A DNA stretch of 21,704 nucleotides, taken from positions 1 through 21,704 of the IMG/VR virus record IMGVR_UViG_3300043773_001613. One strand, 5' to 3'. This DNA is from a virus. Positions 8,908 to 21,583 of this stretch are shown here, piece by piece; the stretch's first letter is position 1; every line of letters begins with the position of its first letter. The position numbers and the translations under genes are program-made. The notes beneath the pieces are model-generated. The model worked only from the letters and a program-made list of their open reading frames with translations, was not told where the DNA came from and searched no databases.

Positions 8908-10588
8908 GAGGAACTCCCGTTGTTGGACCCAGATAGACGAAGCCTTCTCCGCCGAGTCGCTTAGCGCGCCGGCGCTTCCACTCAACGTACCAGGGCTCTT
9001 CTGCAAGCGCGACCTTAGGCTTGTGGTATCGGGGCCTGTAAGCGCAGAGATACTCGAGGCACTGGCAGGCGTGGACCTCGCCGCGCGTGTTCGGCTCGTC
9101 AGTGACCACGTAGGTGCCGGCCAGGTAGTTCACCTTCTTCTTGTAGCGCTTTATCTCCCGCTCCAGGTCGGGCACAGCGCCCCGCAGGATGCGCAGCTGT
9201 GGCGTGCCCTCCGGGCGGATGTGCATGTAGCTCTGGGTGGCCGCCATCCGGGCCTGAATGTCATCACAGCCCGCAAGAAAACTGCTGCCAGTGACAGCAC
9301 TAGCGACATTGCGCTGGCGGAGCTGCTCGGTGTACAGCTCGACCGGGAGGCGGCCTGAGCCGATTTCCCGGATCCGCCCGCCGTGCATGTCAATGATGAA
9401 GGCGTGGAAGGACTGCCCCTTCGTCTTCTCGGCGAACTTTTCTCCGAAGATCACGGCATTGCACTGCCGGATGTAGAGCTGGTCGTAGACCAGGAGCATC
9501 GACTCGTCGGGCGGAACGGCCCCAAAGATGACCGATGTCACAACGTGACCCGGGTCGATAGCGGCATAGCGGGTCCAGTCGTCCGGGACGACGTTCTTGG
9601 GTAGCTCCGACCGCTCGTACCCATGGACCGCCATGGTGAAGGTGGGGTAGCAGAGGATCGAGTCCGTGACGAACTCGCCCTCACTGCGCATCCGCAGCAC
9701 GTCCTCGCCCAGCGCCGACCAGCGCTCGATATTCTTGCGCTTCTCGTCCTCGTCAATATGGGGATTGTCGAGGAACCGGAGGACGAACTTGACGATGTCC
9801 GGGTTGGGGTTGCCGGCCTGGACGGCGTTGTCGGCGCGCTCTGACAGGCCGGCCAGCGAGTCATTCTTGCTGTGGGGCATCGCGCTCCAGCACAGCCGCC
9901 CCTTGCGGTCCGCCAGCCGGGCCTGCATTTCCGGAAGCCAGGCCTCTGACGCCAAGTCCTCGTCGATGTGGACGCGGTCGGCCTGAAAGCCCTGCGGGGG
10001 CTCGCCTTCGGAGCTGAAGAAGTAGATCGTCCAGCCGTTAGTCAGCTCGGCGCTCTGGACGTAACGGGCGCTCTTGAGCAGCCAGCTGATCTTCTTGACC
10101 ATGCGCGGCGGGATCAGGGGAGGCGCCAGCTTGGCCTCTGCGGCTCGGGCCTTGTCGCGGGCCGGGTTGTATGCCCGCCAGGCCCCCGTCTTCTCGTCCT
10201 TGATCATCTTGAAGGCGCCAGCCCGGAACAGCATGGGATAGACCACCATGCCGATGTGCTTCCAGTCCCGGCCAATGATCACCAGATTGCCGTCCCGCTC
10301 GGGGTACTTCTTGTGCGGGTCGTTGCCAGTGACGGCGCGGGCGTCCTCGACAAACGTGGACAAGGACTTGCCGGAGCGATTACCGCCCAGCACGATCACC
10401 TCACTCGCCCGGCAGGCGTGCATCTCCGCCTGCAGGGGCGTCGGTTCGTACAGCTTTAGGGCCTCGACTCTTCGGTCGGCCAGCTCGGCCTGGATTTCCT
10501 TCAGCTGCTGGGCCTGGAAGCCGCTGAGCTTCGCGACGGACGGCAGCGGTGGCGGGGCCTGCGGCTTCTTCCTGCGAGAGCGTGCCAT
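8897..10588 (-). CDS. terL: Terminase large subunit (DNA packaging ATPase-nuclease), 563 aa
   Basis: This is the packaging motor. Residues 68-75 are the Walker A loop GGNRSGKS, and 206-211 (VHIDED) the Walker B strand with catalytic acid. SAMP at 235-238 sits where the coupling motif is expected. The C-terminal RNase H-like nuclease domain begins around 340 with AIDPGH (D345) and a second acidic strand FIIDMHG (D400). The start is ATG 10588 (MARSRRKKPQ) because GGGAGGATCGTTG lies directly upstream; 35 in-frame codons before it have no SD. The first 188 bp overlap the C-terminal frame of the TerS-like gene. About 560 residues is normal for the family. Confidence 0.93.
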   Translation of the reverse strand: MARSRRKKPQAPPPLPSVAKLSGFQAQQLKEIQAELADRRVEALKLYEPTPLQAEMHACRASEVIVLGGNRSGKSLSTFVEDARAVTGNDPHKKYPERDGNLVIIGRDWKHIGMVVYPMLFRAGAFKMIKDEKTGAWRAYNPARDKARAAEAKLAPPLIPPRMVKKISWLLKSARYVQSAELTNGWTIYFFSSEGEPPQGFQADRVHIDEDLASEAWLPEMQARLADRKGRLCWSAMPHSKNDSLAGLSERADNAVQAGNPNPDIVKFVLRFLDNPHIDEDEKRKNIERWSALGEDVLRMRSEGEFVTDSILCYPTFTMAVHGYERSELPKNVVPDDWTRYAAIDPGHVVTSVIFGAVPPDESMLLVYDQLYIRQCNAVIFGEKFAEKTKGQSFHAFIIDMHGGRIREIGSGRLPVELYTEQLRQRNVASAVTGSSFLAGCDDIQARMAATQSYMHIRPEGTPQLRILRGAVPDLEREIKRYKKKVNYLAGTYVVTDEPNTRGEVHACQCLEYLCAYRPRYHKPKVALAEEPWYVEWKRRRAKRLGGEGFVYLGPTTGVPHGH

Positions 10589-11090
10589 CAACGATCCTCC
10601 CCTGAAACTGCGCCGCCAGGGCGCGCAGCCGGCCGTCCAGCTCGGACTCCAGCTCGTCGTCTGTCCACTGGCCCATCGGCTTCTTGGCTCCACCCTGGTC
10701 GGTGTTTTTCACCACCAGCCGCAGGACGGAGTCCAGCATCTTGGTGCGGGTGGCTCCGCCGGCCGGGCTGTCGAAGTACTGCTTGACCAGGAGCGAGGTG
10801 AATCCGCTGACGCCCCCGAAGTACTCCATCAGCCGCTCCAGGACCTCGCAGCTGTGCGGAATGCTCTCCCCGCCGGTCGTGGCCGCCGTCATGAAGCTGG
10901 CGACTGCGCCCACCTCGATGTCCCGGAGGGAGCGGGCGTCCTCTTTTTTGCGCTTCCCTCGCAGCTTTGACCGCCGGCAGACCAGGCAGCGAATGTCGAG
11001 AGAGCCATCCTTCCGCTTGCGGAAGTGCAGCGTCGAGGCCGGCAGGTTTTTCCCGCAATCCTTGCACGTCTTGGCCTGCTGCGCATCCAT
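10401..11090 (-). CDS. Zinc-ribbon protein upstream of TerL, possible small terminase, 229 aa
   Basis: I take ATG 11090 (MDAQQAKTCKDCGKN); a GTG at 11123 is possible but no clear SD supports either. Residues 9-12 and 35-38 form CxxC...CxxC, a treble-clef or zinc-ribbon pattern followed by a very basic patch (RRSKLRGKRKKED). A helical core follows (SCEVLERLMEYFGGVSGFTS, KMLDSVLRLVVKN). Position immediately before TerL suggests the DNA-recognition small terminase, with zinc ribbon as DNA binder; that function is inference. The last 62 or so residues are Arg/Pro/Gly/Ala low complexity and overlap the TerL frame, so the natural end may once have been earlier. Confidence 0.7.
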   Translation of the reverse strand: MDAQQAKTCKDCGKNLPASTLHFRKRKDGSLDIRCLVCRRSKLRGKRKKEDARSLRDIEVGAVASFMTAATTGGESIPHSCEVLERLMEYFGGVSGFTSLLVKQYFDSPAGGATRTKMLDSVLRLVVKNTDQGGAKKPMGQWTDDELESELDGRLRALAAQFQGRIVDGTLSQEEAAGPATAAVRREAQRLPGPAAEGNPGRAGRPKSRGPKAVRTDAPAGGDARLPGE

Positions 11091-11124
11091 GCTGTTCAGC
11101 CGTACAGCATACCATAAAACCACA

Positions 11125-11159
11125 GGGGGCGGGTGAGGCTGTATGCCGCACCCGCCCCC
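11125..11159 (-). terminator. Strong GC hairpin, probable intrinsic terminator after capsid genes
   Basis: Arms GGGGGCGGGTG and CACCCGCCCCC pair perfectly over 11 bp, and a further GGC/GCC pairs inside after one mismatch. On the minus strand the stem is followed by TGTGGTTTTATGG, a short T-run starting 6 nt after the stem. It lies 25 bp past the stop of the decoration gene and before the TerS-like gene, so it would separate the capsid and packaging modules. TATGGTATGCT follows and could be part of a promoter for the packaging genes, but no convincing -35 is seen. Confidence 0.65.
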
Positions 11160-11184
11160 GCAGATCGTTGCAGCTCGGCCCGAC

Positions 11185-11724
11185 TCAGAATCCGGCCGCC
11201 GTCTTGACTAGCACCCGGCCGGAGGTCGTGGCGCTGGTCGCGATGGCAAACCCAAGCAGGGCGTTGGAGCCCTGCGCAGCAGCCGACCCAGCGGTCGCCG
11301 ACGGGCCGTAGGCGGCCCCTGCCGACACGCTGGTCGCCGTCTTGGTGACCGTCGAGGGCCCGCTCACCACCACCCAGAACACCTCGTTGTTCGGCACACC
11401 GGCCGACGGGAGGTATTCGTCCGCCACGCCCATAAGCAGGGTGGCAGCGACAGCGCCGCCGTCCACCTCCGTGAGGATGGCATCGGCATCGAACTTGACC
11501 ACCGCGCCCGGCAGGATCGCCGAGCCGCTGGTGTTCTTGACGCAGATGCAGTCCACCGTGTGGTTGCTCAGGAGAGCGCCGGTCTTGGGATTCTCGTCCC
11601 GGAAGGTCTTGCGGACGCCCAGCAGATGGGAGCCATCACCAACCTGAGCGTCATAGACGTTCGTGTTGGTAATGCCCAGCGTTTGGCCGCGAGCGAATCC
11701 GGGATCAGCAGTCAGGGTGCTCAT
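11185..11724 (-). CDS. Putative capsid decoration (cement) protein, 179 aa
   Basis: ATG 11724 has AGGAAAGGAAAGC upstream. The N-terminus is polar (GFARGQTLGITNTNVYDAQV), then a beta-rich body with HTVDCICVKNTSGSAILPGA, GAVVKFDADAI and NEVFWVVVSGPSTV, ending in Ala/Ser/Thr-rich strands. This pattern, with 'ILPGAVVKFD' and a 'VVVSGP' strand, resembles small beta-tulip or head-decoration proteins of tailed phages. It lies directly behind the major capsid gene with an 18-bp gap, the usual place for such a protein. The alternative is a head-fibre protein. No catalytic or membrane features are seen. Confidence 0.72.
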   Translation of the reverse strand: MSTLTADPGFARGQTLGITNTNVYDAQVGDGSHLLGVRKTFRDENPKTGALLSNHTVDCICVKNTSGSAILPGAVVKFDADAILTEVDGGAVAATLLMGVADEYLPSAGVPNNEVFWVVVSGPSTVTKTATSVSAGAAYGPSATAGSAAAQGSNALLGFAIATSATTSGRVLVKTAAGF

Positions 11725-11742
11725 GCTTTCCTTTCCTTGAGA

Positions 11743-12861
11743 TCAGGCGATGGCCTGCCACTTCACGAAGTTGCGCGGGCTCTTCATCTTGATGTTGGCC
11801 AGGACGGAGACCGCATACCGATGGGACTGGAGCTCCTCGTTGTAGTAGGGGCCCTCCGCGACCATCAGTTGCGATTCCATGCACTTCATCTCCATGTTGC
11901 CGATGGAGAGACCATAGCCCACGCCTGACGGCACGGCGTATTCAGTCGAGACCTCGATGCCGTCGATTTCGACGACGTCGCCGAAGCCGTAGGACCGAAG
12001 GCCGGACGACTTGGTCACGATCGCCCGTTCCCGGCTGTCGAGCCGGTTGAGGAACTGGATGTAGAGCGTCCGGTCGAGAAGGATCATGTCGATCTGGTTC
12101 TCGCGCGTGTCATTCCGCTTGGCGTGATGGACCGCCTCGCGAATCGCCTCGACGCACTGATCCTTCCAGGTCGCCGTCGCACCGCCGAAGTAGGTGCTCG
12201 TGTAGTTGCACACGATGGGAGAGTAGTAGTCGTACTCAGGATCGACGGCGACGTACGGCCACGAGCCAGTCGCGAGCTGCGAGCCGGCGATGTAGCCCAG
12301 TCCGGTATTCAGGCCGGCATACTCATCGGCCGGGAAGCCGAACGGGTCGGCGGCGTTGGCGGTCCGCTGCGCACCCGTCCCGACATTGACCGTGCCGTTG
12401 ATGGCGAAAATGCTCTCGAGGCCATGCCACCGGTTGTCATTCCCGGTCGCATTCCCGTCGATGTAGATCTCCTTGCTCAGGTGCTCCTGCATCGACTCCT
12501 GAAGCCGGCTCGCCATCTTGCCAGCGACGTCGATCAGCGCCTGTGCGCCGCGATTCTCGAGCATCTCGCGCTTGGTTACCTGGTCCGTCACGGTGTAGCC
12601 GCGATAGGGCAGGTAGGCGCGCTGCCACAGGTTGTGGCGCGCGAAGACGCGCGGCGACTCACCGTTATTCGAGGTGACAGGCTGGTTGCGATAGCGCACC
12701 TGCCAGTCGAAGCCCCGACCTCCCTGGTTCATGGCAACCTTGCCATTTGCCTCCAGGGCGGCGAAGACCTTGAACTTCCGGAAGGTGGTCTGCTCCTCTT
12801 CCTTGAGGTGCGTGACCAGCGTCGTCCCAATTGTCCTCGCCCAGTCAGTGCTCGACGGCAT
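11743..12861 (-). CDS. Major capsid protein, 372 aa
   Basis: The ATG at 12861 is preceded by GAAAGGTAA. Size, position behind a scaffold-like gene and before a decoration gene, and composition point to the major head protein. Features include a helical N-terminal arm (residues 1-45), then RGFDWQVRYRNQPV, a long helix LIDVAGKMASRLQESMQEHL (about residues 109-128; spine-helix candidate), and the end HRYAVSVLANIKMKSPRNFV, which is typical of phage MCP C-termini that form the A-domain and last strand. The HK97 fold is expected for the family but cannot be proven by eye. No protease gene is visible nearby, so maturation by cleavage is not indicated. Confidence 0.85.
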   Translation of the reverse strand: MPSSTDWARTIGTTLVTHLKEEEQTTFRKFKVFAALEANGKVAMNQGGRGFDWQVRYRNQPVTSNNGESPRVFARHNLWQRAYLPYRGYTVTDQVTKREMLENRGAQALIDVAGKMASRLQESMQEHLSKEIYIDGNATGNDNRWHGLESIFAINGTVNVGTGAQRTANAADPFGFPADEYAGLNTGLGYIAGSQLATGSWPYVAVDPEYDYYSPIVCNYTSTYFGGATATWKDQCVEAIREAVHHAKRNDTRENQIDMILLDRTLYIQFLNRLDSRERAIVTKSSGLRSYGFGDVVEIDGIEVSTEYAVPSGVGYGLSIGNMEMKCMESQLMVAEGPYYNEELQSHRYAVSVLANIKMKSPRNFVKWQAIA

Positions 12862-12871
12862 GGTTTACCTT

Positions 12872-13933
12872 TCACTCGATTCCGTCCCGGGCCATCTGGG
12901 CCCGGAGACGTTGCTCGAAAGTCATGGGAGCCTTAGGGACTCGAGGATCCGAAGGAGGTCCTGACCTGCTTGGGTTTCTGCTCGCTTCCCTTCTCAAATA
13001 TTCTATGTCCTTCTCGGCGCGATTTTGGGCCGGCGCTGCCTGCAGAGGTGCAGATGGAGCAGTCGCAGGCGCTGATGGAGCGAACGCAGCAGGGCGCGAA
13101 GCAGCAGCCTGGCGCTGCTCAACGACCTCGCGAAGCAGGTCGCGCTCGACCATGTCGCAGGCGAACTGCCAGCGTTCCTGCGGCGTGCCGTAGCCCGCCT
13201 GAGAGGCCTGATTGATGTACTTCTGAATCATCAGCCCTTCGCGCGACGGCGTCTTGCCGTCCTGTTCGTAGAGCCAGTCGCGGTTCTGCTGCTCTAGGGT
13301 CGAGACGTAGCTGGCCTCGCTGACCTCGCGGATTTGCTCCTGGACGATTTCCCTGGCCCGGTCGGCGGCCACTTGCTCCACCATCGGGCCGAGCGCAGCC
13401 TGCGGGTCCGAGAGGAACTTCTGGGCAAAGTCGGCCCGGTACTGCATGTACTCGAGCAGTCGCTCGCGCACGTGGAGCGGCGCATCCTCAGCGATGGCAT
13501 CCCGGCCGTTCGGGTCCTTCACCAGGTAGCGCCGGTCGGCGTCGCGGACTTCCGGAGGGTTCCACCACTTGTGCTGCTCAGGCGGCGAGGCCGGAGCTGC
13601 CTGGGGGGCAGGGGCCTGCTGGGCGCGGCTCTGGTGCTGCCGCCACTGGTCGAACGAATCGCGGTGGGTCAGGTATTCCTGCGCGTACGGGATGAGCTGC
13701 TGGTACTGCTGGAGAGCTTTTGTTGCCGCTTTTTCTCGCTCCATCGACGCGTACAGGCGGCCAGCAATTTGAGTGTCGTCTTGCCCCTGGAAGTCAGGCA
13801 GAGAGCGAAAGGAGGACCAGATGTCGGCACTGCCGGAACCGCCCGCCGCCGGCTCGCTTGCAGGCGACTGGCCCTCTGCCGGGCTTGCAGTGACGTCGGC
13901 AGTGGAAGCATCGAGAACGGTCTCTTCGCTCAT
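12872..13933 (-). CDS. Scaffolding protein, 353 aa
   Basis: The ATG at 13933 follows GGAGTTCCGCC. The protein is hydrophilic, acidic at the N-terminus (MSEETVLDASTADVTASPAE), Pro/Ala/Gln-rich in linkers (QAPAPQAAPASPPE and APSAPATAPSAPLQAAPAQ), and helical with coiled-coil character between about 165 and 290 (VEQVAADRAREIVQEQIREV). The C-terminus is basic (TFEQRLRAQMARDG), matching the usual capsid-binding helix of scaffolds. It precedes the major capsid gene by 10 bp. These are the standard signs of a phage scaffold; no protease catalytic triad is evident. Confidence 0.82.
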   Translation of the reverse strand: MSEETVLDASTADVTASPAEGQSPASEPAAGGSGSADIWSSFRSLPDFQGQDDTQIAGRLYASMEREKAATKALQQYQQLIPYAQEYLTHRDSFDQWRQHQSRAQQAPAPQAAPASPPEQHKWWNPPEVRDADRRYLVKDPNGRDAIAEDAPLHVRERLLEYMQYRADFAQKFLSDPQAALGPMVEQVAADRAREIVQEQIREVSEASYVSTLEQQNRDWLYEQDGKTPSREGLMIQKYINQASQAGYGTPQERWQFACDMVERDLLREVVEQRQAAASRPAAFAPSAPATAPSAPLQAAPAQNRAEKDIEYLRREASRNPSRSGPPSDPRVPKAPMTFEQRLRAQMARDGIE

Positions 13934-13989
13934 GGCGGAACTCCGTAATGGTTTATGGGGCGCTGGCGTCCAGTGTACGCCCGGCCACC

Positions 13990-15657
13990 TTAGCGCGCGA
14001 CTTTGCGCCGCAGAGAGTCAGGCGCTGCACGCATCGCGCCTTGCGCCCACGAAGGAACCTCGAGCTGGCCTTGCGCCTTGCTGAACTCGTTCCAGATCTC
14101 GTTGGGGTTCTGCCAGGTGGCCAGTTCAGTGCGCTTCGCAGCGTCTTCTGCGGCGGCTCGCCTGTCGGCCAGGAGCTGCTGGTACTCGCTCTCCGGCATG
14201 TCCATGGCCGGGTCGGTCAGGAACTGCCCCCACGTTCGCTGCGGCTGTGTCAGAGTGGAGCTAATCGCGGCCTCGACGCCCATGTCAGGCAACAGGTCCT
14301 CTCTGGCGACTCTCCCCGAAGCTCCAGGAAGGAAGTTGGTCAGGCCCGGGCGCCGCAGCTGCTCAGCGTAAGCCGCTGCCGGCACGCCCCTGTAGCCGGC
14401 TACCCGAGCGCCCTGGCCAAGCATTCCGGTCTCGGGCAGCGCCCGGGCAGCCCTTGCCATCTGCGCCCGGGCAGCGTTCATCGGCAAGCCGGTGGAGCGA
14501 GAGACAGCTCGGGTGGCTTCTTTGGCCAGCCAGGCTCCCGGAGCCGCCTTCGCTGCGGAGGCGAGGCTGACGGGAGCGGTGGCGTCGGCAAAGCCCATCA
14601 GCGTTTCCAGGACGCGGCCGGAAACCTCTGGCGTGCCCGCCCCAAAGGTGTTCCGGGACATCTCCGCCGCATCCGGCGGTGTCATTGCCACGATGTCACC
14701 CACGACCTCCGACTCGCGGCGGCGCCAGCGGTCGGCACGATCGGCCTCGCTCTCGCCAGGCAATCGCTCGGGCACGTCAAGGATTGGGTTTTCGCCGGTG
14801 CGGTAGCGCTGCTTGGCCAGGTCCGCCGCATAGGCGATGCCGAGCGTGTCTCGCGCACCGCCCGGGTATCCGCGAGTGTCGTGGGCAAGAGCCGCCGGCA
14901 CGATCGACTGGGTGCCCAAGTACCGCCCGATCGGCGACAGCGGGCTTCCGAGCAGCTCGAGTGCCCCAGCGCCCGCGCCTTGATACCTGCCGTAGTTCGA
15001 TCCGGCCCCCTGCATCAGCGGATCACCGTACTCGTCCCGGGTCGTTCTGGCATCCTTGCTCCTGTTCCAGAAGTGCAGGGCTGTCTGAGGGTCGTCGCGC
15101 AGTTGCCCGAGCAGGTCGACGGCCCGGCCGGGCCCCGCCTGCATGTACTCGTATCGCTCCGGCGACATCAGGAACTGCGACTCGCGCCGAGCCGGCTCCG
15201 TCCCGCCGCGCTCCTGCGCATACTTGGCGGCCTCCCGCCCGAACTGCTTGGCATTGAACCAGCCGGGATTCGACTCCAGGCGGTCGAACACTGTCTCTAG
15301 CTGCTCGGCGGCCACGACCGGACCGTAGCCTGGCGCTGCGCCGTACACCGCCTGCTCGGGAGTGTCGATGAGATTAGCGAGCGGCACGGCCGGCCTGTAC
15401 AGCGTCTGGCCGTCCTTCGCCACCCGCAGCCCGGAGGGCCGATCGACGCTCATGCCCGGCAGGAATTCCGTGTACGCCCGGAGCGCACCCACCTCTTCGG
15501 CTGGCAAGCGGACCGGCGGCACGGCACCCCTGAGGCGGTTCATCTCGTAGAGGGCCGCCTGCTCGGCCTCTAGCTGCGCAGTCGAGGGGCCGGCTGGGCG
15601 CTCCGGAGCGGCCGGAAGCCGACGGCCGTCCACGCCGATCATGTCGAACAAGCCCAC
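13990..15657 (-). CDS. Large Ala/Arg-rich probable virion protein, 555 aa
   Basis: The GTG at 15657 has GGGAGGG 5-6 nt upstream, which supports it over the ATG five codons later. The product is Ala-, Gly-, Arg- and Pro-rich and mostly helical by appearance. Parts such as GRAVDLLGQLRDDPQTALHF and SLASAAKAAPGAWLAKEATR resemble internal or ejected virion proteins. No lysozyme, protease or transglycosylase active-site motif could be seen, and there is no membrane anchor. It lies between small early-type genes and the scaffold, an unusual place for an ejection protein. I do not recognise a family; virion protein is inference from size, composition and neighbourhood. Confidence 0.65.
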   Translation of the reverse strand: MGLFDMIGVDGRRLPAAPERPAGPSTAQLEAEQAALYEMNRLRGAVPPVRLPAEEVGALRAYTEFLPGMSVDRPSGLRVAKDGQTLYRPAVPLANLIDTPEQAVYGAAPGYGPVVAAEQLETVFDRLESNPGWFNAKQFGREAAKYAQERGGTEPARRESQFLMSPERYEYMQAGPGRAVDLLGQLRDDPQTALHFWNRSKDARTTRDEYGDPLMQGAGSNYGRYQGAGAGALELLGSPLSPIGRYLGTQSIVPAALAHDTRGYPGGARDTLGIAYAADLAKQRYRTGENPILDVPERLPGESEADRADRWRRRESEVVGDIVAMTPPDAAEMSRNTFGAGTPEVSGRVLETLMGFADATAPVSLASAAKAAPGAWLAKEATRAVSRSTGLPMNAARAQMARAARALPETGMLGQGARVAGYRGVPAAAYAEQLRRPGLTNFLPGASGRVAREDLLPDMGVEAAISSTLTQPQRTWGQFLTDPAMDMPESEYQQLLADRRAAAEDAAKRTELATWQNPNEIWNEFSKAQGQLEVPSWAQGAMRAAPDSLRRKVAR

Positions 15658-15672
15658 GCGACCCTCCCGGAC

Positions 15673-16020
15673 CTAGCGGCCCATGCCGCGTTGCTGGGCG
15701 ATTCGCTTCTGGTGCGCCGCTGCGATGCGCTCCCGGTTGGACGGCGGATCAAACGTCACGCCCTCGACATACTCCTCAGGCACCAGCATTTGCAGCGGCG
15801 CCGGATCGCGAAGTCCTGCATACACCGGCCCGGCGGAGTACATCGGCGGCAGCTTGACTTTGGGCGGCACGGAGGCAAACGGGTCGCGCCCAAGCTCGGC
15901 GGATTCCCTCGCAGGAAGGGGCACGGGCTTGGCGGCATCGTCTCCGTCGATGCCGACTGGCCGCCGCATCCTCAGCAGCTCGCGAATGCCATCCTCTGGG
16001 CTTTTGCTCGGCATTGGCAT
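15673..16020 (-). CDS. Hypothetical protein, 115 aa, proline-rich
   Basis: ATG 16020 has a strong AGGAGGCGGTC upstream. The protein starts MPMPSKSPEDGIRELLRMRR and is rich in Pro and charged residues. Its middle (DPFASVPPKVKLPPMYSAGP) looks extended, and its C-terminus (SNRERIAAAHQKRIAQQRGM) is a basic helix. It precedes the 555-aa gene by 15 bp and is likely co-translated. It may be a small virion or assembly protein, but nothing specific supports this. Confidence 0.68.
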   Translation of the reverse strand: MPMPSKSPEDGIRELLRMRRPVGIDGDDAAKPVPLPARESAELGRDPFASVPPKVKLPPMYSAGPVYAGLRDPAPLQMLVPEEYVEGVTFDPPSNRERIAAAHQKRIAQQRGMGR

Positions 16021-16045
16021 GACCGCCTCCTGGTTTCTAAGGGAT

Positions 16046-16249
16046 TTATGTCTCCCGTGCAGTGCGATTGGGCCGGCGGCGCTGAGGCTTGGCCTGGCTG
16101 GCCTCGAGCTTGCGCTGGGACTCCTGGCGCCAGCGCACGGCGAACCCGGCCATCTGGCTTTCAGTTAGCGGCCGGTACGTACCCCACTCCTTGCATTGCT
16201 GGCGGTATTCCCGGTGGATGCGGGCCAGCGGGTCTTCCTTCTCGGTCAC
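16046..16249 (-). CDS. Small basic protein, 67 aa
   Basis: The GTG at 16249 directly abuts the TAG of the upstream membrane protein. The sequence MTEKEDPLARIHREYRQQCK is helical and charged, followed by a very basic Arg/Lys/Gln-rich tail (KPQRRRPNRTARET). A nucleic-acid-binding or capsid-associated role is possible from charge alone. No zinc motif or named domain is seen. Coupling and the tight operon make it a likely real gene. Confidence 0.6.
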   Translation of the reverse strand: MTEKEDPLARIHREYRQQCKEWGTYRPLTESQMAGFAVRWRQESQRKLEASQAKPQRRRPNRTARET

Positions 16250-16513
16250 CTAGCGCTTCTCCGGGTGAAGGCGCACTGTAAGGTAAGTGCCGAGAAACGC
16301 ACCTGAGGCCAGAGGGACCAGGTACAGGATGTTCTGGCTGTAGCTGACAACGCCGTACGCGAGCAGGCTGTAGATCACGGCCGTGAGGCATGCAGCCGTG
16401 AAGGCGCGTCGGTCCCCTACGCACATCACGTACCAGGCGTACAGCATGTCAATCAGCACGTAGGTGCCGAAAATCGTCGCCGCCGTGAGCCAGGAGAACT
16501 CCGCCACATTCAC
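16250..16513 (-). CDS. Three-helix membrane protein, 87 aa (holin-sized)
   Basis: The GTG at 16513 overlaps the TGA of the 30-aa ORF. The protein has three hydrophobic segments: about 9-31 (TAATIFGTYVLIDMLYAWYV), 37-59 (FTAACLTAVIYSLLAYGVVS) and 62-81 (NILYLVPLASGAFLGTYLTV), with charged loops and a basic C-terminus (RLHPEKR). Size and topology fit a class I holin, but an unrelated small inner-membrane phage protein is equally plausible. No endolysin or spanin pair is visible beside it. It probably works with the 30-aa membrane peptide encoded immediately upstream. Confidence 0.72.
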   Translation of the reverse strand: MNVAEFSWLTAATIFGTYVLIDMLYAWYVMCVGDRRAFTAACLTAVIYSLLAYGVVSYSQNILYLVPLASGAFLGTYLTVRLHPEKR

Positions 16514-16602
16514 CCCCTAAGGAAAATCAGGGCCGATACCAGCATCGCCGCCAGCAGGGCCGTCGATATCGCCATAGACATCAGAAATGCGCGGACGCTC
16601 AT
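16510..16602 (-). CDS. 30-aa single-pass membrane peptide
   Basis: A 30-codon frame, MSVRAFLMSM then AISTALLAAM and LVSALIFLRG, starts at ATG 16602, overlapping the TGA of the 69-aa gene (ATGA). It ends in a TGA overlapping the GTG of the 87-aa membrane protein. Nearly the whole peptide is one hydrophobic helix with Arg near both ends. The perfect stop/start coupling on both sides argues that it is translated. Such tiny phage membrane peptides can be holin partners, antiholins or modulators, but no function is shown. Confidence 0.6.
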   Translation of the reverse strand: MSVRAFLMSMAISTALLAAMLVSALIFLRG

Positions 16603-16808
16603 GTGTCGAGTAGCTCCCCGTCAATCATCGCCCTGATATCCTGCGCCAGCCGTGCCTGCTCTGGCGTCGGGTCGCCGTGCTTCAGCAAGCTGCGGCACTT
16701 CTGGTCGATCTCCCACAGAACGAGCAACGCCTGGCTGCCCAGCCGGGCGGCGTCGAACTCGCCCTGCTCGTCGGGGAGTCGGTATCGGAGTGTCGCTACG
16801 GGAGACAT
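16599..16808 (-). CDS. Small conserved-type phage protein, 69 aa
   Basis: It begins MSPVATLRYRLPDEQGEFDA and contains ALLVLWEIDQKCRSLLKHGD. Small proteins of the form 'tLrYrLPeE..EF..A.....L..L.eiDq..R..LKhG' are frequent in phages near replication genes. I recall the pattern but know no function. No SD precedes ATG 16808 (CATCTGAT), and an inverted repeat at 16847-16879 lies just upstream, so translation may be controlled. It is followed by an ATGA-coupled membrane peptide. Confidence 0.7.
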   Translation of the reverse strand: MSPVATLRYRLPDEQGEFDAARLGSQALLVLWEIDQKCRSLLKHGDPTPEQARLAQDIRAMIDGELLDT

Positions 16809-16846
16809 ATCAGATGTGATGTGTTGCGAGAGCGGGTTTTTGGCGA

Positions 16847-16879
16847 CACAGAAACTGTCACTTTTCGACAGTTTGTGTG
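16847..16879. repeat. Imperfect inverted repeat at the junction of two leftward genes
   Basis: On the plus strand, AAACTGTC (16852-16859) and GACAGTTT (16867-16874) pair perfectly around a 7-nt loop. After one mismatch, CACA and TGTG extend the stem to 12 pairs. It overlaps the last codons of the 184-aa gene (stop at 16858). On the minus strand, TCGCCAAAAACCC follows, so there is no U-run and it is not a classical terminator. An RNase III-type processing site, an mRNA-protecting hairpin or an operator are options. Confidence 0.6.
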
Positions 16880-17412
16880 CAGGCCGTGAACGTACACGCC
16901 AGCTCCTGCATCGCCAGCGACTCCGGGTAGCCGCTCGCGATCAGCCACGCGGTCATATCGCCGTCCGTCGCCGGATCGTAGAGGCGCGGGAACCCGTACC
17001 TGTGGCCGCCTGCCGGATCGACCCAGTACGGGCGTGACAGCCACGCGGGCGGGATCGCAGGCTCGGGTGGTGTGGCAGTATCGCCCCCTGCGATAGCCTC
17101 TGGCCGGTCGGGCGAAAGCCGCTCCCACAGACCTTGCAGTGTCTTCGCCCACTGAATCAGCGGGCGAGCCTCGTCAAGCCGCGTGGCGCTTTGCAGCTCG
17201 CGGGCGCGGTCGCACAGCAAATCGTACACCCTGGAGATCGCCTCCCGCTCCGCGTCGGCGAGCGTGGGCGAACGGTAGAGCGGGATGATGCCGTGATTGC
17301 CCGTCACAACCTCGTCAATCGCCTTGGCTTCCTCTTCGATGGCGTAGACATCGTAGATGCGGTCGCCGTCCGCGAGCAGGACCGCCCACGCTATCGGCTC
17401 GTTGTGCCTCAT
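16858..17412 (-). CDS. Hypothetical phage protein, 184 aa
   Basis: ATG 17412 overlaps the TGA of the previous gene (ATGA). The N-terminal about 50 residues (EPIAWAVLLADGDRIYDVYA, ending NHGIIPLYRSP) form a small module of a type often seen in phage-encoded proteins, with a question/answer pattern of W..V...G and IPLYR. A helical middle follows (ADAEREAISRVYDLLCDRAR), a proline linker (PPEPAIPP), and a C-terminal domain with WLSRPYWVDPAGG and two cysteines in the last 20 residues. No enzyme motif is seen. The function is unknown; co-transcription with SSB suggests early or middle expression. Confidence 0.72.
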   Translation of the reverse strand: MRHNEPIAWAVLLADGDRIYDVYAIEEEAKAIDEVVTGNHGIIPLYRSPTLADAEREAISRVYDLLCDRARELQSATRLDEARPLIQWAKTLQGLWERLSPDRPEAIAGGDTATPPEPAIPPAWLSRPYWVDPAGGHRYGFPRLYDPATDGDMTAWLIASGYPESLAMQELACTFTACTQTVEK

Positions 17413-17648
17413 GTCGTCCTCTCCAGTAGCGTCCGCAGCGTGGCGTCAACCGCGTCGGGGCCGCCCGTGCCGACGTAGTAGGCAATCGCCTCCCGCTCCT
17501 CGTCGGTGAGCGTGGCCCTTTCCAGCGCATCCGCGAGCCGGTGAATCATGCACCGATCATGGTACATATGGCAGCGGTCGCTGTGGGTGCTGACGCGCAC
17601 CGGCTGGGCGTCACGCCACTCGCGGTAGTCGGCAAGGATGTCGCTCAT
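17409..17648 (-). CDS. Hypothetical protein, 79 aa
   Basis: The start is taken as ATG 17648 (MSDILADYREW); an in-frame GTG at 17672 would add eight residues and has a G-rich run just upstream. The protein has RCHMYHDRCMIHRL with two Cys and three His that could bind metal, then a helical LTDEEREAIAYYVGTGG and LRTLLERTT. The LTDEEREAI...LRxLLER type of short protein occurs in phage and planctomycete-like genomes, to my memory. No function is assigned. Its stop overlaps the next start. Confidence 0.65.
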   Translation of the reverse strand: MSDILADYREWRDAQPVRVSTHSDRCHMYHDRCMIHRLADALERATLTDEEREAIAYYVGTGGPDAVDATLRTLLERTT

Positions 17649-17871
17649 TTTACAGTTTCCAGAATGTGCCACTGCCCCCGTCCCATCGTCGCCAGGGTGT
17701 TGTCCACCTGCGCTACGCCTGGGGGCAGCCCGCCGACAGCACCCATAGACGCCGTAGGGCGCGGCGTCGGCTGACGGTGGGCAATTACGCAGTTTCGGTC
17801 GCCCAAATCATATCCAATACGATACGAAAAGTGGTGCTTTTTTCTTACGGTTGGGGCGTTACTTTCCGCCT
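17649..17871 (-). other. Intergenic stretch with hairpin and AT-rich patch
   Basis: No well-supported gene is seen. A perfect 7-bp inverted repeat GACGCCG/CGGCGTC lies at 17748-17768. Just left of it, a 33-codon frame (ATG 17746 to TGA 17645, overlapping the next ATG) has no SD. An AT-rich patch around 17810-17850 contains TATGAT on the minus strand (plus 17807-17812), a possible -10 without a good -35. It may hold a second promoter of the leftward unit. Confidence 0.35.
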
Positions 17872-17982
17872 CTAGCGTCTGCTGGCGATCCAGACGACGA
17901 GCGCCTGCCCTGCGAGCAGCACCGCCATCATCGCGACGACTGGCCATGTGATTTCGTCCGCGCCGCCCGGCACCCCTACCAT
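17872..17982 (-). CDS. 36-aa single-pass membrane peptide behind SSB
   Basis: The frame MVGVPGGADEITWPVV continues with AMMAVLLAGQALVVWIASRR. It starts at ATG 17982, overlapping the SSB stop by 7 nt, and has a strong AGGAGG about 9 nt upstream inside the ssb gene. A polar, acidic N-terminus is followed by one hydrophobic helix (about residues 12-32) and a basic end, so an N-out, C-in topology is likely. The near-consensus SD makes translation very likely despite the small size. It could be a holin-like or membrane-active peptide; nothing else identifies it. Confidence 0.65.
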   Translation of the reverse strand: MVGVPGGADEITWPVVAMMAVLLAGQALVVWIASRR

Positions 17983-18329
17983 GGCTCCGACCCTCCTGCG
18001 GGTGCCGATTCCTGCTTGCGGAAGCGGACACTGAGGGCCACGTCATCGGCGATCATCCGCAGCGACTGCCCCTCCCCGCCGTCCTTCTTCTGGTACCTCT
18101 CCAGCTCGACGCGGCCGGTCACCATCACGCGATCGCCCTTGTTCAGGCTTTCGCAGACAGCCTCAGCCGACTCGTCGAAGCACACCACATCCACCCACGT
18201 CGTCGTGGGCTCACCGCCCTTGCGCTTGTAGGTCGACGCCACCCCAAAGGTGGTCATCGGCTTGCCGCCAGAGGTGGTCCTGAGCTCGGGTGTTTTGCCC
18301 ACATTGCCGGTCACTGTGGCAGTGATCAT
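17976..18329 (-). CDS. ssb: Single-stranded DNA-binding protein, 117 aa
   Basis: This OB-fold protein coats single-stranded DNA during phage replication and recombination. The typical bacterial-type SSB order is visible: MITATVTGNVGKTPELR, then TTFGVASTY, TTTWVDVVCFDESAEAV with the conserved Trp (residue 45), LNKGDRVMVTGRVELERY, and RMIADDVALSVRF. ATG 18329 is preceded by AAAGGACTCGC; an upstream in-frame extension to a TTG at 18590 crosses a promoter and hairpin and is not used. It ends GGSEPW and lacks the acidic DDIPF-like tip that recruits partner proteins in cellular SSBs, as in some phage versions. It is the first gene of the leftward unit. Confidence 0.92.
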   Translation of the reverse strand: MITATVTGNVGKTPELRTTSGGKPMTTFGVASTYKRKGGEPTTTWVDVVCFDESAEAVCESLNKGDRVMVTGRVELERYQKKDGGEGQSLRMIADDVALSVRFRKQESAPAGGSEPW

Positions 18330-18354
18330 GCGAGTCCTTTCTGCTTGGGAGACA

Positions 18355-18375
18355 GCCCCGCCCAACCGGCGGGGC
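18355..18375 (-). other. 8-bp leader hairpin in the ssb mRNA
   Basis: GCCCCGCC and GGCGGGGC pair perfectly around a 5-nt loop, ending 25 nt before the ssb ATG. On the minus strand it lies about 10 bp past the candidate -10 box, so it would form close to the mRNA 5' end. TGTCTCCC rather than a T-run follows, so mRNA stabilisation or translational control is more likely than termination. Confidence 0.55.
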
Positions 18376-18384
18376 ATGCGCACC

Positions 18385-18413
18385 GTTGTACACCCATCGC
18401 GCCTGGCGCGCAA
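18385..18413 (-). promoter_or_regulatory. Candidate promoter of the leftward unit with palindromic operator
   Basis: On the minus strand TTGCGC (18413-18408) and TACAAC (18390-18385) are separated by exactly 17 bp, fitting a sigma-70-type promoter about 60 bp before the ssb start. A perfect 6+1+6 palindrome, CGCGCCAGGCGCG, occupies 18398-18410 and so covers the -35 box and spacer, as a repressor site would. The -10 is only a partial match. No regulator gene is visible in the window. Confidence 0.45.
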
Positions 18414-18636
18414 GTGGGCCGGGACGCTCAAAATCGGGAAAAAATCCAGGGGGGGTACGTATATATGATCGGATCGCGACTGGGGGGCTCGGGGCCTTTG
18501 AACTTGGCGTCGTAAGTCCGCGCTGCCGCAGGACTTGCATCGCCCGCACGGGAACACGAACGGGTAGGGCCTGTCCGAAACTCCAAACAACCGGGTCGAC
18601 CCCTCCTCATTTCACTCGTGCTTCACCGCCGTCCGG
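18414..18636. other. Divergent control region
   Basis: This stretch between the two transcription units holds no gene I would accept. Seen in it: a TATATATGAT patch at 18460-18469 (plus -10-like TATGAT at 18464-18469, no clear -35); a long hairpin at 18506-18544 (GGCG/CGCC, a small internal loop, AAGTCC/GGACTT, GCG/CGC with one bulge); and the 10-bp palindrome GGGTCGACCC at 18593-18602. One minus frame opening with TTG 18590 contains PCGRCKSCGSADLRR, a CxxC-type zinc-ribbon-like piece, but then degenerates. Confidence 0.4.
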
Positions 18637-18710
18637 CCCTTTGTTTTCAGGGGTCGGCGAGCTCTTAGTGTCAGCAGCAACCACAGCAAGTGACTGTGGC
18701 CTGACTGGCA
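18637..18710 (+). repeat. Element A, copy 1 (leader of first rightward gene)
   Basis: The conserved core lies at 18643-18667, consisting of GTTTTCAGGGG followed by TCGGCGAG and CTCTTA. CCC just upstream can pair with its GGG. Downstream is a copy-specific hairpin: CCACAG (18681-18686) with CTGTGG (18694-18699), enclosed by GTCAG/CTGAC (18670-18674, 18701-18705). The SD GGAGG and the ATG at 18724 follow. No rightward gene precedes this copy, so the element belongs to the 5' side of genes rather than to gene ends. Confidence 0.7.
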
Positions 18711-19019: not shown

Positions 19020-19076
19020 GTCCCCTGTTTTCAGGGGCTGGCGAGTTCTTTCTGGAGCCAGGGAGGTCCTGGTTCC
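19020..19076 (+). repeat. Element A, copy 2
   Basis: This copy starts 3 nt after the previous stop. Hairpin 1 is perfect (CCCCTG, TTTT loop, CAGGGG; 19022-19037). The core runs 19027-19051 and has GGGGCTGG in place of GGGGTCGG, otherwise ending GCGAGTTCTTT. Hairpin 2 at 19054-19076 pairs nine positions (GGAGCCAGG with CCTGGTTCC, one G-T pair) and shares no sequence with the hairpin-2 stems of the other copies. A pyrimidine-rich stretch and GGGAGGTGTGTC lead to ATG 19111. Confidence 0.72.
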
Positions 19077-19110: not shown

Positions 19111-19380
19111 ATGGAATGGGTTCTGCAACACGGCGCTGATGCGGCTCAGGGTCTGGTGGTGATCGGCGTTGTGGTCGCTGTCGCCGTCGCCTGGCGGGTG
19201 ATGAGCAATGCGATCTCGTGGGTCGCAGACGATGCGTCTCAGGCGCTCGGGATGGCGGTTCACGCCCACGCCGAGATCGACGCCCTCAAGACGCGAGTCC
19301 GGTCCCTTGAGGACGCCGCTGCCCGCTCCAAGAAGCGGGACGCTGACAAGGCCCAAGTCCGGATCGCGAAGGTCGCTTAG
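19111..19380 (+). CDS. Small membrane-anchored coiled-coil protein, 89 aa
   Basis: ATG 19111 is chosen because GGGAGGTGTGTC precedes it. A GTG at 19084 would add nine residues without an SD. One transmembrane helix is evident at about 14-31 (GLVVIGVVVAVAVAWRV), followed by an amphipathic, then heptad-like charged region (EIDALKTRVRSLEDAAARSK). The topology resembles a short inner-membrane spanin or a membrane-tethered small phage protein, but it is shorter than usual i-spanins and no lipoprotein partner is seen. Its TAG stop shares its last base with the first hammerhead ribozyme. Confidence 0.72.
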   Translation: MEWVLQHGADAAQGLVVIGVVVAVAVAWRVMSNAISWVADDASQALGMAVHAHAEIDALKTRVRSLEDAAARSKKRDADKAQVRIAKVA

Positions 19381-19431
19381 CCCGAAACCGGCTTCGGCCG
19401 GTCCTGCCGTATGGCGGCAGCTGATGAGGGC
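19380..19431 (+). ncRNA. Type II hammerhead ribozyme, copy 1
   Basis: This is a self-cleaving RNA. All core elements are in type II order. Stem II is GCCC (19380-19383) with GGGC (19428-19431). GAAA is at 19384-19387. Stem III is ACCGGC/GCCGGT closed by a TTCG loop. The cleavage nucleotide is C19403 in GTC. Stem I is CTGCCG/CGGCAG with a TATGG loop, and the core CTGATGA is at 19421-19427. Cleavage would fall between 19403 and 19404, leaving the downstream mRNA with stem I near its 5' end. The first base is the G of the preceding TAG stop. An SD (GGAGGTGAAT) follows. Stem II is only 4 bp, so activity without loop contacts may be modest. Confidence 0.92.
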
Positions 19432-19457
19432 AGTTTCCCTGAGTCGTGGAGGTGAAT

Positions 19458-19637
19458 ATGGATCGCTACCTGGTGATCTACGGCCCCGACTATCCCGCAG
19501 TGGTGGTCGGTCCGTTTCCTGAGGGCTTCAACGCGCTCAAGGAATTCGAGCTCCCGCCCGGCTACGACACCGCATCCTCCCACGCTACACGCGAAGAGGC
19601 GGAGTCGGAGGCGGAGTGGTATTGGGCCAATGCTTAA
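19458..19637 (+). CDS. Hypothetical protein, 59 aa, between two hammerhead ribozymes
   Basis: ATG 19458 has GGAGGTGAAT directly upstream; the in-frame GTG at 19446 is part of that SD region. The protein begins MDRYLVIYGPDYPAVVVGPF and ends acidic (SHATREEAESEAEWYWANA). It looks like a small alpha/beta fold and has no cysteines or membrane helix. It is encoded exactly between the two ribozymes, so cleavage at both would release a monocistronic mRNA of about 260 nt. No family is recognised. Confidence 0.7.
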   Translation: MDRYLVIYGPDYPAVVVGPFPEGFNALKEFELPPGYDTASSHATREEAESEAEWYWANA

Positions 19638-19689
19638 GCCCGAAACCCGCTTCGGCGGGTCTCACCGTATGGCGGTGACTGATGAGGGC
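19638..19689 (+). ncRNA. Type II hammerhead ribozyme, copy 2
   Basis: It begins at the base after the TAA stop. Stem II is GCCC (19638-19641) with GGGC (19686-19689). GAAA is at 19642-19645. Stem III is ACCCGC/GCGGGT with a TTCG loop, cleavage C is 19661, stem I is TCACCG/CGGTGA with a TATGG loop, and the core CTGATGA is at 19679-19685. Compared with copy 1, one stem III pair (G-C to C-G) and three stem I pairs change on both sides, while loops and core are identical. This is compensatory evolution and strong evidence for function. GGAGGTGTGTG and ATG 19718 follow. Confidence 0.93.
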
Positions 19690-19717
19690 AGTTTCTCTCG
19701 AGGAATGGAGGTGTGTG

Positions 19718-20104
19718 ATGGGGTACTTCGACAAGTTGGCACAGCTGGGGTTTGTGGTGATCTGCCGCCGCAACCCGCTTGGGACCACGACGATGTTCGC
19801 GGTCAAACCGGAGGAGATGCAGGTGGAGCTGGCGATCGGCGAGACCTTCGACGACTACCTGTCGGAGTTCCTTCCCGAATGGCGGCTCGTGGACTTCAGG
19901 CACGACGACGCCGCCGGTGGGGCGAAGATGCTCTACGAGAAGCTCACCTGCACCGGCAGCTACGCCGACAGGGATGAGCGACTGCTGGAGGCGTTCCCTG
20001 GCGAGGCGGGCAGCGAGCTGCTGATCGGCTTCGCGCACCGCCCGGAGCGGGAGCGGTTCAGTCCGGTCGACGGGCCTGCAGGCTGGGATCGGATCGAGGC
20101 CTGA
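19718..20104 (+). CDS. Hypothetical acidic protein, 128 aa
   Basis: ATG 19718 follows GGAGGTGTGTG; the longer frame from 19682 would begin inside the ribozyme core and is rejected. The protein reads MGYFDKLAQLGFVVICRRNP, then TMFAVKPEEMQVELAIG, DDYLSEFLPEWRLVDFRHDD, and ends PERERFSPVDGPAGWDRIEA. It is soluble, acidic and without recognised motifs. Its transcript would start at the cleavage site of hammerhead copy 2 if cleavage occurs. Its TGA is the first part of an outer stem of element C1. Confidence 0.7.
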   Translation: MGYFDKLAQLGFVVICRRNPLGTTTMFAVKPEEMQVELAIGETFDDYLSEFLPEWRLVDFRHDDAAGGAKMLYEKLTCTGSYADRDERLLEAFPGEAGSELLIGFAHRPERERFSPVDGPAGWDRIEA

Positions 20105-20173: not shown

Positions 20174-20231
20174 CCCCTTGTTTTCAGGGGTCGGCGAGTT
20201 CTTTTTAGAGGGACGGCACTCTGCCGCTCCC
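20174..20231 (+). repeat. Element A, copy 3
   Basis: Hairpin 1 is CCCCT/AGGGG (20174-20178, 20186-20190). The core 20180-20204 matches copy 4 exactly. Hairpin 2 (20210-20231) pairs GGGACGGC with GCCGCTCCC with one bulged C, loop ACTCT. CGTTCTTTCCTG and GGGAGGTGTGCG then lead to ATG 20257. It lies immediately behind element C1. On the minus strand AGGGG is followed by TTTTT, but no leftward gene ends here. Confidence 0.72.
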
Positions 20232-21515: not shown

Positions 21516-21583
21516 CCCTTGTTTTCAGGGGTCGGCGAGTTCTTTGTGAGGGGCCAGCAGTCGGCCGGGCTGCTGGCTCCTCG
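21515..21583 (+). repeat. Element A, copy 4, with terminator-like hairpin
   Basis: The core is at 21521-21545, identical to copy 3. CCC at 21516-21518 can pair with its GGG. Hairpin 2 is the longest of the set: GAGGGGCCAGCAG with CTGCTGGCTCCTC (21548-21560, 21570-21582), 13 pairs with one G-T, 9-nt loop. It is followed by GTGTTTTT, which would make an intrinsic terminator. TTCGGAGGTGTGCG and ATG 21615 follow, so termination here would attenuate the next gene. Confidence 0.72.

Follow-up and report, generated by a model that had tools for sequence, protein, structure and literature searches.

Compact pseudoknot-free hammerhead ribozymes predicted to split a tailed-phage operon into single-gene mRNAs

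Two compact type II hammerhead ribozymes (HHR1 and HHR2), both lacking a pseudoknot, lie behind stop codons in a viral DNA stretch of 21,704 nucleotides (IMG/VR record IMGVR_UViG_3300043773_001613, positions 1 to 21,704; here termed the window). The reading that we favor, with a probability of approximately 0.7, is that they cleave themselves and thereby split the genes g2, g3, and g4 into separate mRNAs; cleavage itself is inferred. The window carries SSB, terminase, and portal genes, which indicate a tailed phage. The features concerned are as follows.

19111..19380, plus strand: g2, 89 aa; its TAG stop codon (19378-19380) gives its G to HHR1
19380..19431, plus strand: HHR1, type II hammerhead, 52 nt (sequence; RF02276, 30.4 bits; own model R2, 74.2 bits); stem II 5' strand 19380-19383, GAA 19384-19386, stem III 19387-19402, C17 19403, stem I 19404-19420, CUGAUGA 19421-19427, stem II 3' strand 19428-19431; predicted cut between 19403 and 19404
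19404..19661, plus strand: predicted excised g3 mRNA, 258 nt (inferred from hammerhead chemistry and coordinates)
19427..19440, plus strand: alternative hairpin of HHR1, AGGG-CAGUUU-CCCU, a possible competitor of stem II
19458..19637, plus strand: g3, 59 aa, between HHR1 and HHR2; its TAA stop codon (19635-19637) abuts HHR2
19638..19689, plus strand: HHR2, type II hammerhead, 52 nt (sequence; RF02276, 31.1 bits; own model R2, 74.6 bits); stem II 5' strand 19638-19641, GAA 19642-19644, stem III 19645-19660, C17 19661, stem I 19662-19678, CUGAUGA 19679-19685, stem II 3' strand 19686-19689; predicted cut between 19661 and 19662
19685-19698, plus strand: weaker counterpart of the alternative hairpin in HHR2
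19718..20104, plus strand: g4, 128 aa, downstream of HHR2

Two complete type II hammerhead cores

HHR1 reads GCCC-GAA-ACCGGCUUCGGCCGGU-C/CUGCCGUAUGGCGGCAG-CUGAUGA-GGGC and HHR2 reads GCCC-GAA-ACCCGCUUCGGCGGGU-C/UCACCGUAUGGCGGUGA-CUGAUGA-GGGC, where the slash marks the predicted cut. The hammerhead core (C3 U4 G5 A6 N7 G8 A9, G12 A13 A14, A15.1-U16.1, and H17) is complete in both copies. Their permutation is that of type II: stems I and III each end in a loop, stem II is open, and the order is GAA, stem III, C17, stem I, CUGAUGA. Four pairs differ on both sides between the copies (one in stem III and three in stem I), and the core and loops are identical. HHR1 and HHR2 are thus confirmed as complete type II hammerhead cores, although their self-cleavage is inferred from sequence alone. 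A preliminary description had claimed two complete 52-nt cores at these positions, their placement at stop codons with the first copy sharing a base with TAG, and covariation at four pairs with unchanged core and loops; all three claims held, the first being supported also by the full-model fit reported next.

The Rfam model RF02276 (Hammerhead_II) spanned its full length on both HHR1 (E value, 2.3e-4) and HHR2 (E value, 1.5e-4), as computed on 401 nt. This search had been proposed in the preliminary description as a check, and its outcome was significant (E value, ~2e-4) but below the gathering score of 37 bits. Because 30 to 31 bits falls short of that score, the window yields no hit in a default Rfam scan. 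The borderline scores are explained by the nature of the model, which describes a subclass with the usual pseudoknot, whereas the window copies belong to a compact subclass without it. A covariance model built from the latter subclass (R2), whose training alignment included the window copies, scored HHR1 and HHR2 at 74 to 75 bits.

Further tests addressed chance and pairing. The stem III pattern matched the window exactly twice, against a chance mean of 0.05, even with two mismatches allowed. A sequence-only pattern (GAAAC, UUCG loop, GUC, and CUGAUGA, with no pairing demanded) was run on viral contigs and yielded at least 108 unique instances; stem III paired at 4/4 positions in 107 of 108 and stem I formed at least 4 bp in 103 of 108. 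By our own arithmetic, four free stem III pairs would arise by chance in approximately 2% of cases. An alignment of 32 sequences showed two-sided changes at 13 of 17 pairs. That count is inflated, since its rows came from a descriptor that demanded pairing, and the pairing-free test is the more trustworthy. The structural descriptor itself detected 218 elements in 1.9 Mb of loci and none in the reversed-sequence control. Several sequence-only instances without a regular stem II have one extra U behind A9. At least 10 loci (L072, L082, L089, L090, L096, L101, L125, L145, L148, and L152) have a single additional U separating A9 from stem II (CUGAUGA-U-GGC or similar) and are otherwise fully paired.

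An alternative explanation is that the elements are inactive remnants, or plain hairpins acting as 3'-end stabilizers or terminators, that merely resemble hammerheads. In its favor are the scores below gathering and the absence of a cleavage assay. Against it, all core positions are kept in both copies and in essentially all relatives, and the descriptor counts (218 versus 0 in reversed sequence) do not suit accidental hairpins. A terminator scan found no intrinsic terminator at HHR1 or HHR2, neither of which has a U-tract behind it. We regard this explanation as very unlikely.

Two subclasses of type II hammerhead

The elements that we collected fall into two subclasses. The first has a stem I block of 22 to 23 nt and short stem II helices, and its loop I forms a Watson-Crick pseudoknot with the tail; a loop I-tail match of at least 4 was present in all 81 elements with a 22-nt stem I block. 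This is the subclass that RF02276 models. The second, to which the window copies belong, has a 17-nt stem I block (6 bp plus a 5-nt UNANN loop), a 4-bp stem II, and an A directly before stem II. The window copies did not meet the pseudoknot test: the longest loop I-tail match was 3 bp in both (scored on identical copies in L004 and L005). A loop I-tail pseudoknot occurs in most, but not all, type II hammerheads and is not required of a hammerhead.

In a replication set of the window's subclass, stem II was exactly 4 bp in 239 of 243 elements. Loop I began with U in 242/243, and A preceded stem II in 241/242; the search pattern fixed the loop-I U and left the A free. In the discovery set, the A was present in all 28 elements in which it was not part of a stop codon, so that it is a structural requirement. 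Its likely role, inferred by analogy with loop-loop hammerheads, is as the partner of the loop-I U in a tertiary contact.

None of 28 elements of the window's subclass from seven loci matched RF02276 at gathering (two of the 28, in L008, were the window pair's own copies); pseudoknotted elements in the same scan reached 64 bits. A strict pattern of the window's subclass was found in only three contigs among 85,000 prokaryote genomes. With looser stem III spacing, two viral scans each returned at least about 80 contigs. For the scans made, the pseudoknot-free subclass is therefore abundant in viral contigs and invisible at the Rfam gathering cutoff, which means that annotation pipelines relying on default thresholds undercount such ribozymes.

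Stop-codon placement and predicted mRNA products

Type II elements are locked to stop codons. Of 193 unique elements, 151 start between -2 and +5 nt from the stop of the upstream gene, compared with 45 of 965 random positions, and in the replication set 205 of 243 were placed at the upstream stop codon. The leader from cut to start codon is short and uniform in the window's class (median, 53.5 nt; quartiles, 49 to 57 nt). The most saturated case is a 57-kb phage record (L433; IMGVR_UViG_3300017605_000570, positions 9500-18500), with 24 type II hammerheads on one strand within 7.6 kb. They follow nearly every gene in a run of genes of 26 to 119 aa, with leaders mostly of 48 to 51 nt. All 24 are of the pseudoknot type and score above RF02276 gathering, and the window is thus a sparse member of a wider design. 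The design is also present in isolated phages, namely RcSimone-Hastad (Rhodobacter), CRP-7, and Paedore (Streptomyces); in RcSimone-Hastad, which grows on R. capsulatus SB1003, and Paedore, which grows on S. lividans, the related pseudoknotted form stands behind stop codons. The stop-codon lock, the uniform leaders, and the recurrence across phages are shown by sequence.

In the mechanism that we propose, each ribozyme would fold once it has been transcribed behind the stop codon and then cut after C17. Cutting would be cotranscriptional and would yield single-gene mRNAs with a hairpin at both ends, because in the type II permutation the upstream product retains all of stem III and the downstream product all of stem I. 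The g2 mRNA would terminate in a stable UUCG hairpin approximately 24 nt beyond its stop codon, and the mRNAs downstream of it (g3 and g4) would begin at nucleotide 1 with a hairpin and a 5'-OH. The predicted g3 mRNA would consist of a 5'-OH, the stem I hairpin at nucleotide 1, a 54-nt leader, g3, and the UUCG-capped stem III hairpin ending in a 2',3'-cyclic phosphate. Both ends of such mRNAs should resist exonucleases and 5'-monophosphate-dependent decay, giving stable messages with near-uniform leaders. The architecture and covariation of the ribozymes are shown by sequence; cleavage in vivo and any benefit to mRNA stability or dosage are inferred. Against the reading, the scores are below gathering, RNAfold prefers an alternative fold for HHR1, most relatives by terminase have at most one copy, and there are no stability data for split mRNAs.

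A different fate for the 258-nt g3 RNA would be excision as a circular mRNA, through religation by a hybrid hammerhead or through an RtcB-type ligase. After the cut, the upstream and downstream products would be held together by the 4-bp stem II alone, and this stem (GCCC/GGGC) is common to both copies, so that the two termini of the released fragment can assemble into a hybrid hammerhead. Hammerhead products bear a 5'-OH and a 2',3'-cyclic phosphate, as joining requires. Among class A pairs, the stem II strand was identical in 57% of those within a contig versus 12.5% between contigs. However, stems I and III likewise show greater similarity within contigs, and shared ancestry may therefore suffice. 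Moreover, Perreault et al. sought spliced or circular products and found none (PMC3088659). We consider a circular product unlikely and retain linear single-gene mRNAs as the preferred reading.

A 61.6-kb record with a 100% identical terminase, apparently the same phage, holds these two ribozymes alone. No close DNA relative of the window was found among named phages, and the terminase matched only distant Arthrobacter phages, with 23 to 24% identity. Most relatives by terminase have zero or one ribozyme copy, and cutting is therefore not essential to this type of phage. PHROG and Pfam searches gave no match for g2 or g3. From our own reading of its sequence, without topology prediction, g2 looks like a short N-terminal membrane segment followed by a coiled coil. 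The genes just upstream of a ribozyme (g2 and its counterparts in L001, L003, L020, L025, L036, and L052) are short and of membrane-anchored appearance, and most end in a coiled-coil-like tail, yet their sequences are mostly unrelated (again our own reading).

A repeated element, CCCYTGTTTTCAGGGGYYGGCGAGYTCTTT, was observed in four other gene gaps of the window operon (18638-18670, 19022-19054, 20175-20207, and 21516-21548; plus strand), so that either this repeat or a ribozyme occupies several of the gaps. The 5' strand of its hairpin varies only by C/U opposite G, its tail is nearer to an antitermination boxA than to a terminator U-tract, and further copies were found in L001, L004, L036, and L052.

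The ribozymes could, as another explanation, be chiefly DNA-level seams at which recombination between almost identical copies adds and removes small genes. The presence of g3 in the window and its absence from L001 are shown: in L001, a g4 relative (81% identical) comes straight after g2 and one ribozyme, compared with g2-ribozyme-g3-ribozyme-g4 in the window. In L003, a ribozyme stands directly before a g3 relative (94.5% identical). Other relatives also retain a ribozyme behind a short gene, whose N terminus mostly looks membrane-like by our own reading, and in most relatives this ribozyme is followed by different downstream genes. Nevertheless, compensatory stem changes and an intact catalytic core show selection at the RNA level, and gene turnover may be a by-product. 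Seams as the chief function are thus unlikely, although recombination between ribozyme copies probably does move small genes in and out. The L001 ribozyme may be chimeric, but few base pairs differ. Operon splitting by self-cleavage remains the reading that we prefer.

The downstream strand and comparison with known hammerheads

Part of the window's subclass carries the motif RUCAG right behind stem II, complementary to the core CUGAY. Its first base matched the variable core position 7 in all 31 such elements of the replication set (C-G, 22; U-A, 9; Fisher's exact test, 5e-8) and in 11 of 11 of the discovery set: elements with C at position 7 all have G as R, and those with U all have A. In the 210 replication elements without the tail, no association with position 7 was found (P = 0.33). 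These statistics ignore relatedness among the phages. With kinship uncorrected, the match amounts to support by covariation for a hairpin incompatible with the active fold, and any function of that hairpin is inferred. The tail is a minority feature (31/241) and is absent from the window copies. UCAG occurred in 38% of 16-nt tails versus 3.2% of control windows, a figure that overstates the anti-core motif because in 50 of the 91 elements scored the motif arises from UC at the end of stem II plus an adjoining AG; support for the anti-core strand comes from the 31 plus 11 elements with RUCAG directly behind stem II. In L160 (7308-9740, minus strand), seven class A ribozymes stand in a row, all with an anti-core tail; in six of the seven, a change at core position 7 is accompanied by changes in the tail base and the fourth stem II pair, giving UGAC..CUGAUGA..GUCAUCAG or CGAC..CUGACGA..GUCGUCAG.

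In the window, a possible alternative hairpin of 4 bp would compete with stem II. RNAfold, which omits tertiary contacts, gave a minimum-energy fold for HHR1 that contains the GGG/CCC part of this hairpin and folded HHR2 as the active hammerhead. The hairpin is kept in relatives, but the evidence for it is weak because two-sided covariation is lacking. The idea that all tails in the window's subclass mimic stem II was not supported, as own tails in general folded no better than swapped tails.

These strands raise the possibility of a timed or translation-coupled switch. Since a stem II strand overlaps the stop codon and the downstream strand can pair with stem II or the core, the ribozyme could be kept inactive by a ribosome terminating there or by continued transcription. 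In a variant, the same downstream strand may render cleavage irreversible by releasing the upstream product. The position 7 match, confined to elements with the tail, the predicted bistability of HHR1, and, in part, the UCAG enrichment favor a switch. Against it, RUCAG is a minority feature not seen in the window, the 4-bp competitor in the window lacks two-sided covariation, own tails generally fold no better than swapped ones, and ribosome coupling is pure inference. We treat the switch as a possibility that is less likely than operon splitting. A bolder reading would unite ribozyme-punctuated operons (i.e., a hammerhead behind nearly every stop, yielding up to approximately two dozen hairpin-capped mRNAs) with, in the pseudoknot-free subclass, a tertiary-contact A in or beside the stop codon and, in part of that subclass, a covarying anti-core strand whose refolding of the ribozyme would terminate or gate cleavage. 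Taken as one claim, we consider it less likely than not.

In 2011, Perreault et al. reported type II hammerheads, the associated pseudoknot, and the framing of prophage genes by such ribozymes (PMC3088659); three tandem arrangements cleave in vitro, and the A. tumefaciens ribozymes cleave in Escherichia coli as well. The class and the basic arrangement are therefore already known. The preliminary description had called the class not new, which held. It had also described a pair framing a 59-aa gene and releasing a monocistronic mRNA; the framing held, and the release remains a prediction, since cleavage is inferred. Its view that such framing is unusual failed, given the prophage cases of 2011 (PMC3088659), a review (PMC6155905), and the widespread occurrence found here, with up to 24 consecutive copies. 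We found no report of saturated arrays, of the anti-core strand, of a pseudoknot-free subclass below the Rfam cutoff, or of a quantified stop-codon lock in the open literature searched; most subscription papers and preprints were outside its scope.

According to that review, published in 2017, the role of prokaryotic hammerheads is still open, and a link to phages was noted. Our data offer a sharp role, with cleavage inferred: gene separators locked to stop codons. The use of type II between genes would then be explained, because this is the permutation in which both products retain a closed hairpin. Should the anti-core strand prove functional, it would provide a natural hammerhead with an integral switch, for shutting off or for release.

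The window ribozymes share with RF02276 and the published type II examples (PMC3088659) the type II permutation, the core, a UUCG-type stem III hairpin, the phage or prophage context, and the framing of small genes. They differ from RF02276 in the 6-bp stem I with its 5-nt UNANN loop, the 4-bp stem II, the A before it, and the lack of a pseudoknot. Another parallel is the set of tandem and triple hammerheads around ardA of Agrobacterium and around further prophage genes (PMC3088659), where a single transcript likewise contains several ribozymes that frame one gene or a small number of genes; the present analysis adds a quantified stop-codon lock and, in other phages, up to 24 copies per operon. 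The loop-I U and the stem II-side A resemble, by inference, the conserved reverse-Hoogsteen U-A contact of type I and III loop-loop hammerheads (e.g., sTRSV and Schistosoma; PMC6155905), but the window copies have an open stem II, and their A is located within or beside the stop codon rather than within a closed loop II. Compared with the crystal structure of a pseudoknotted hammerhead (PMC11300833), the window copies have the same catalytic core and chemistry without its pseudoknot.
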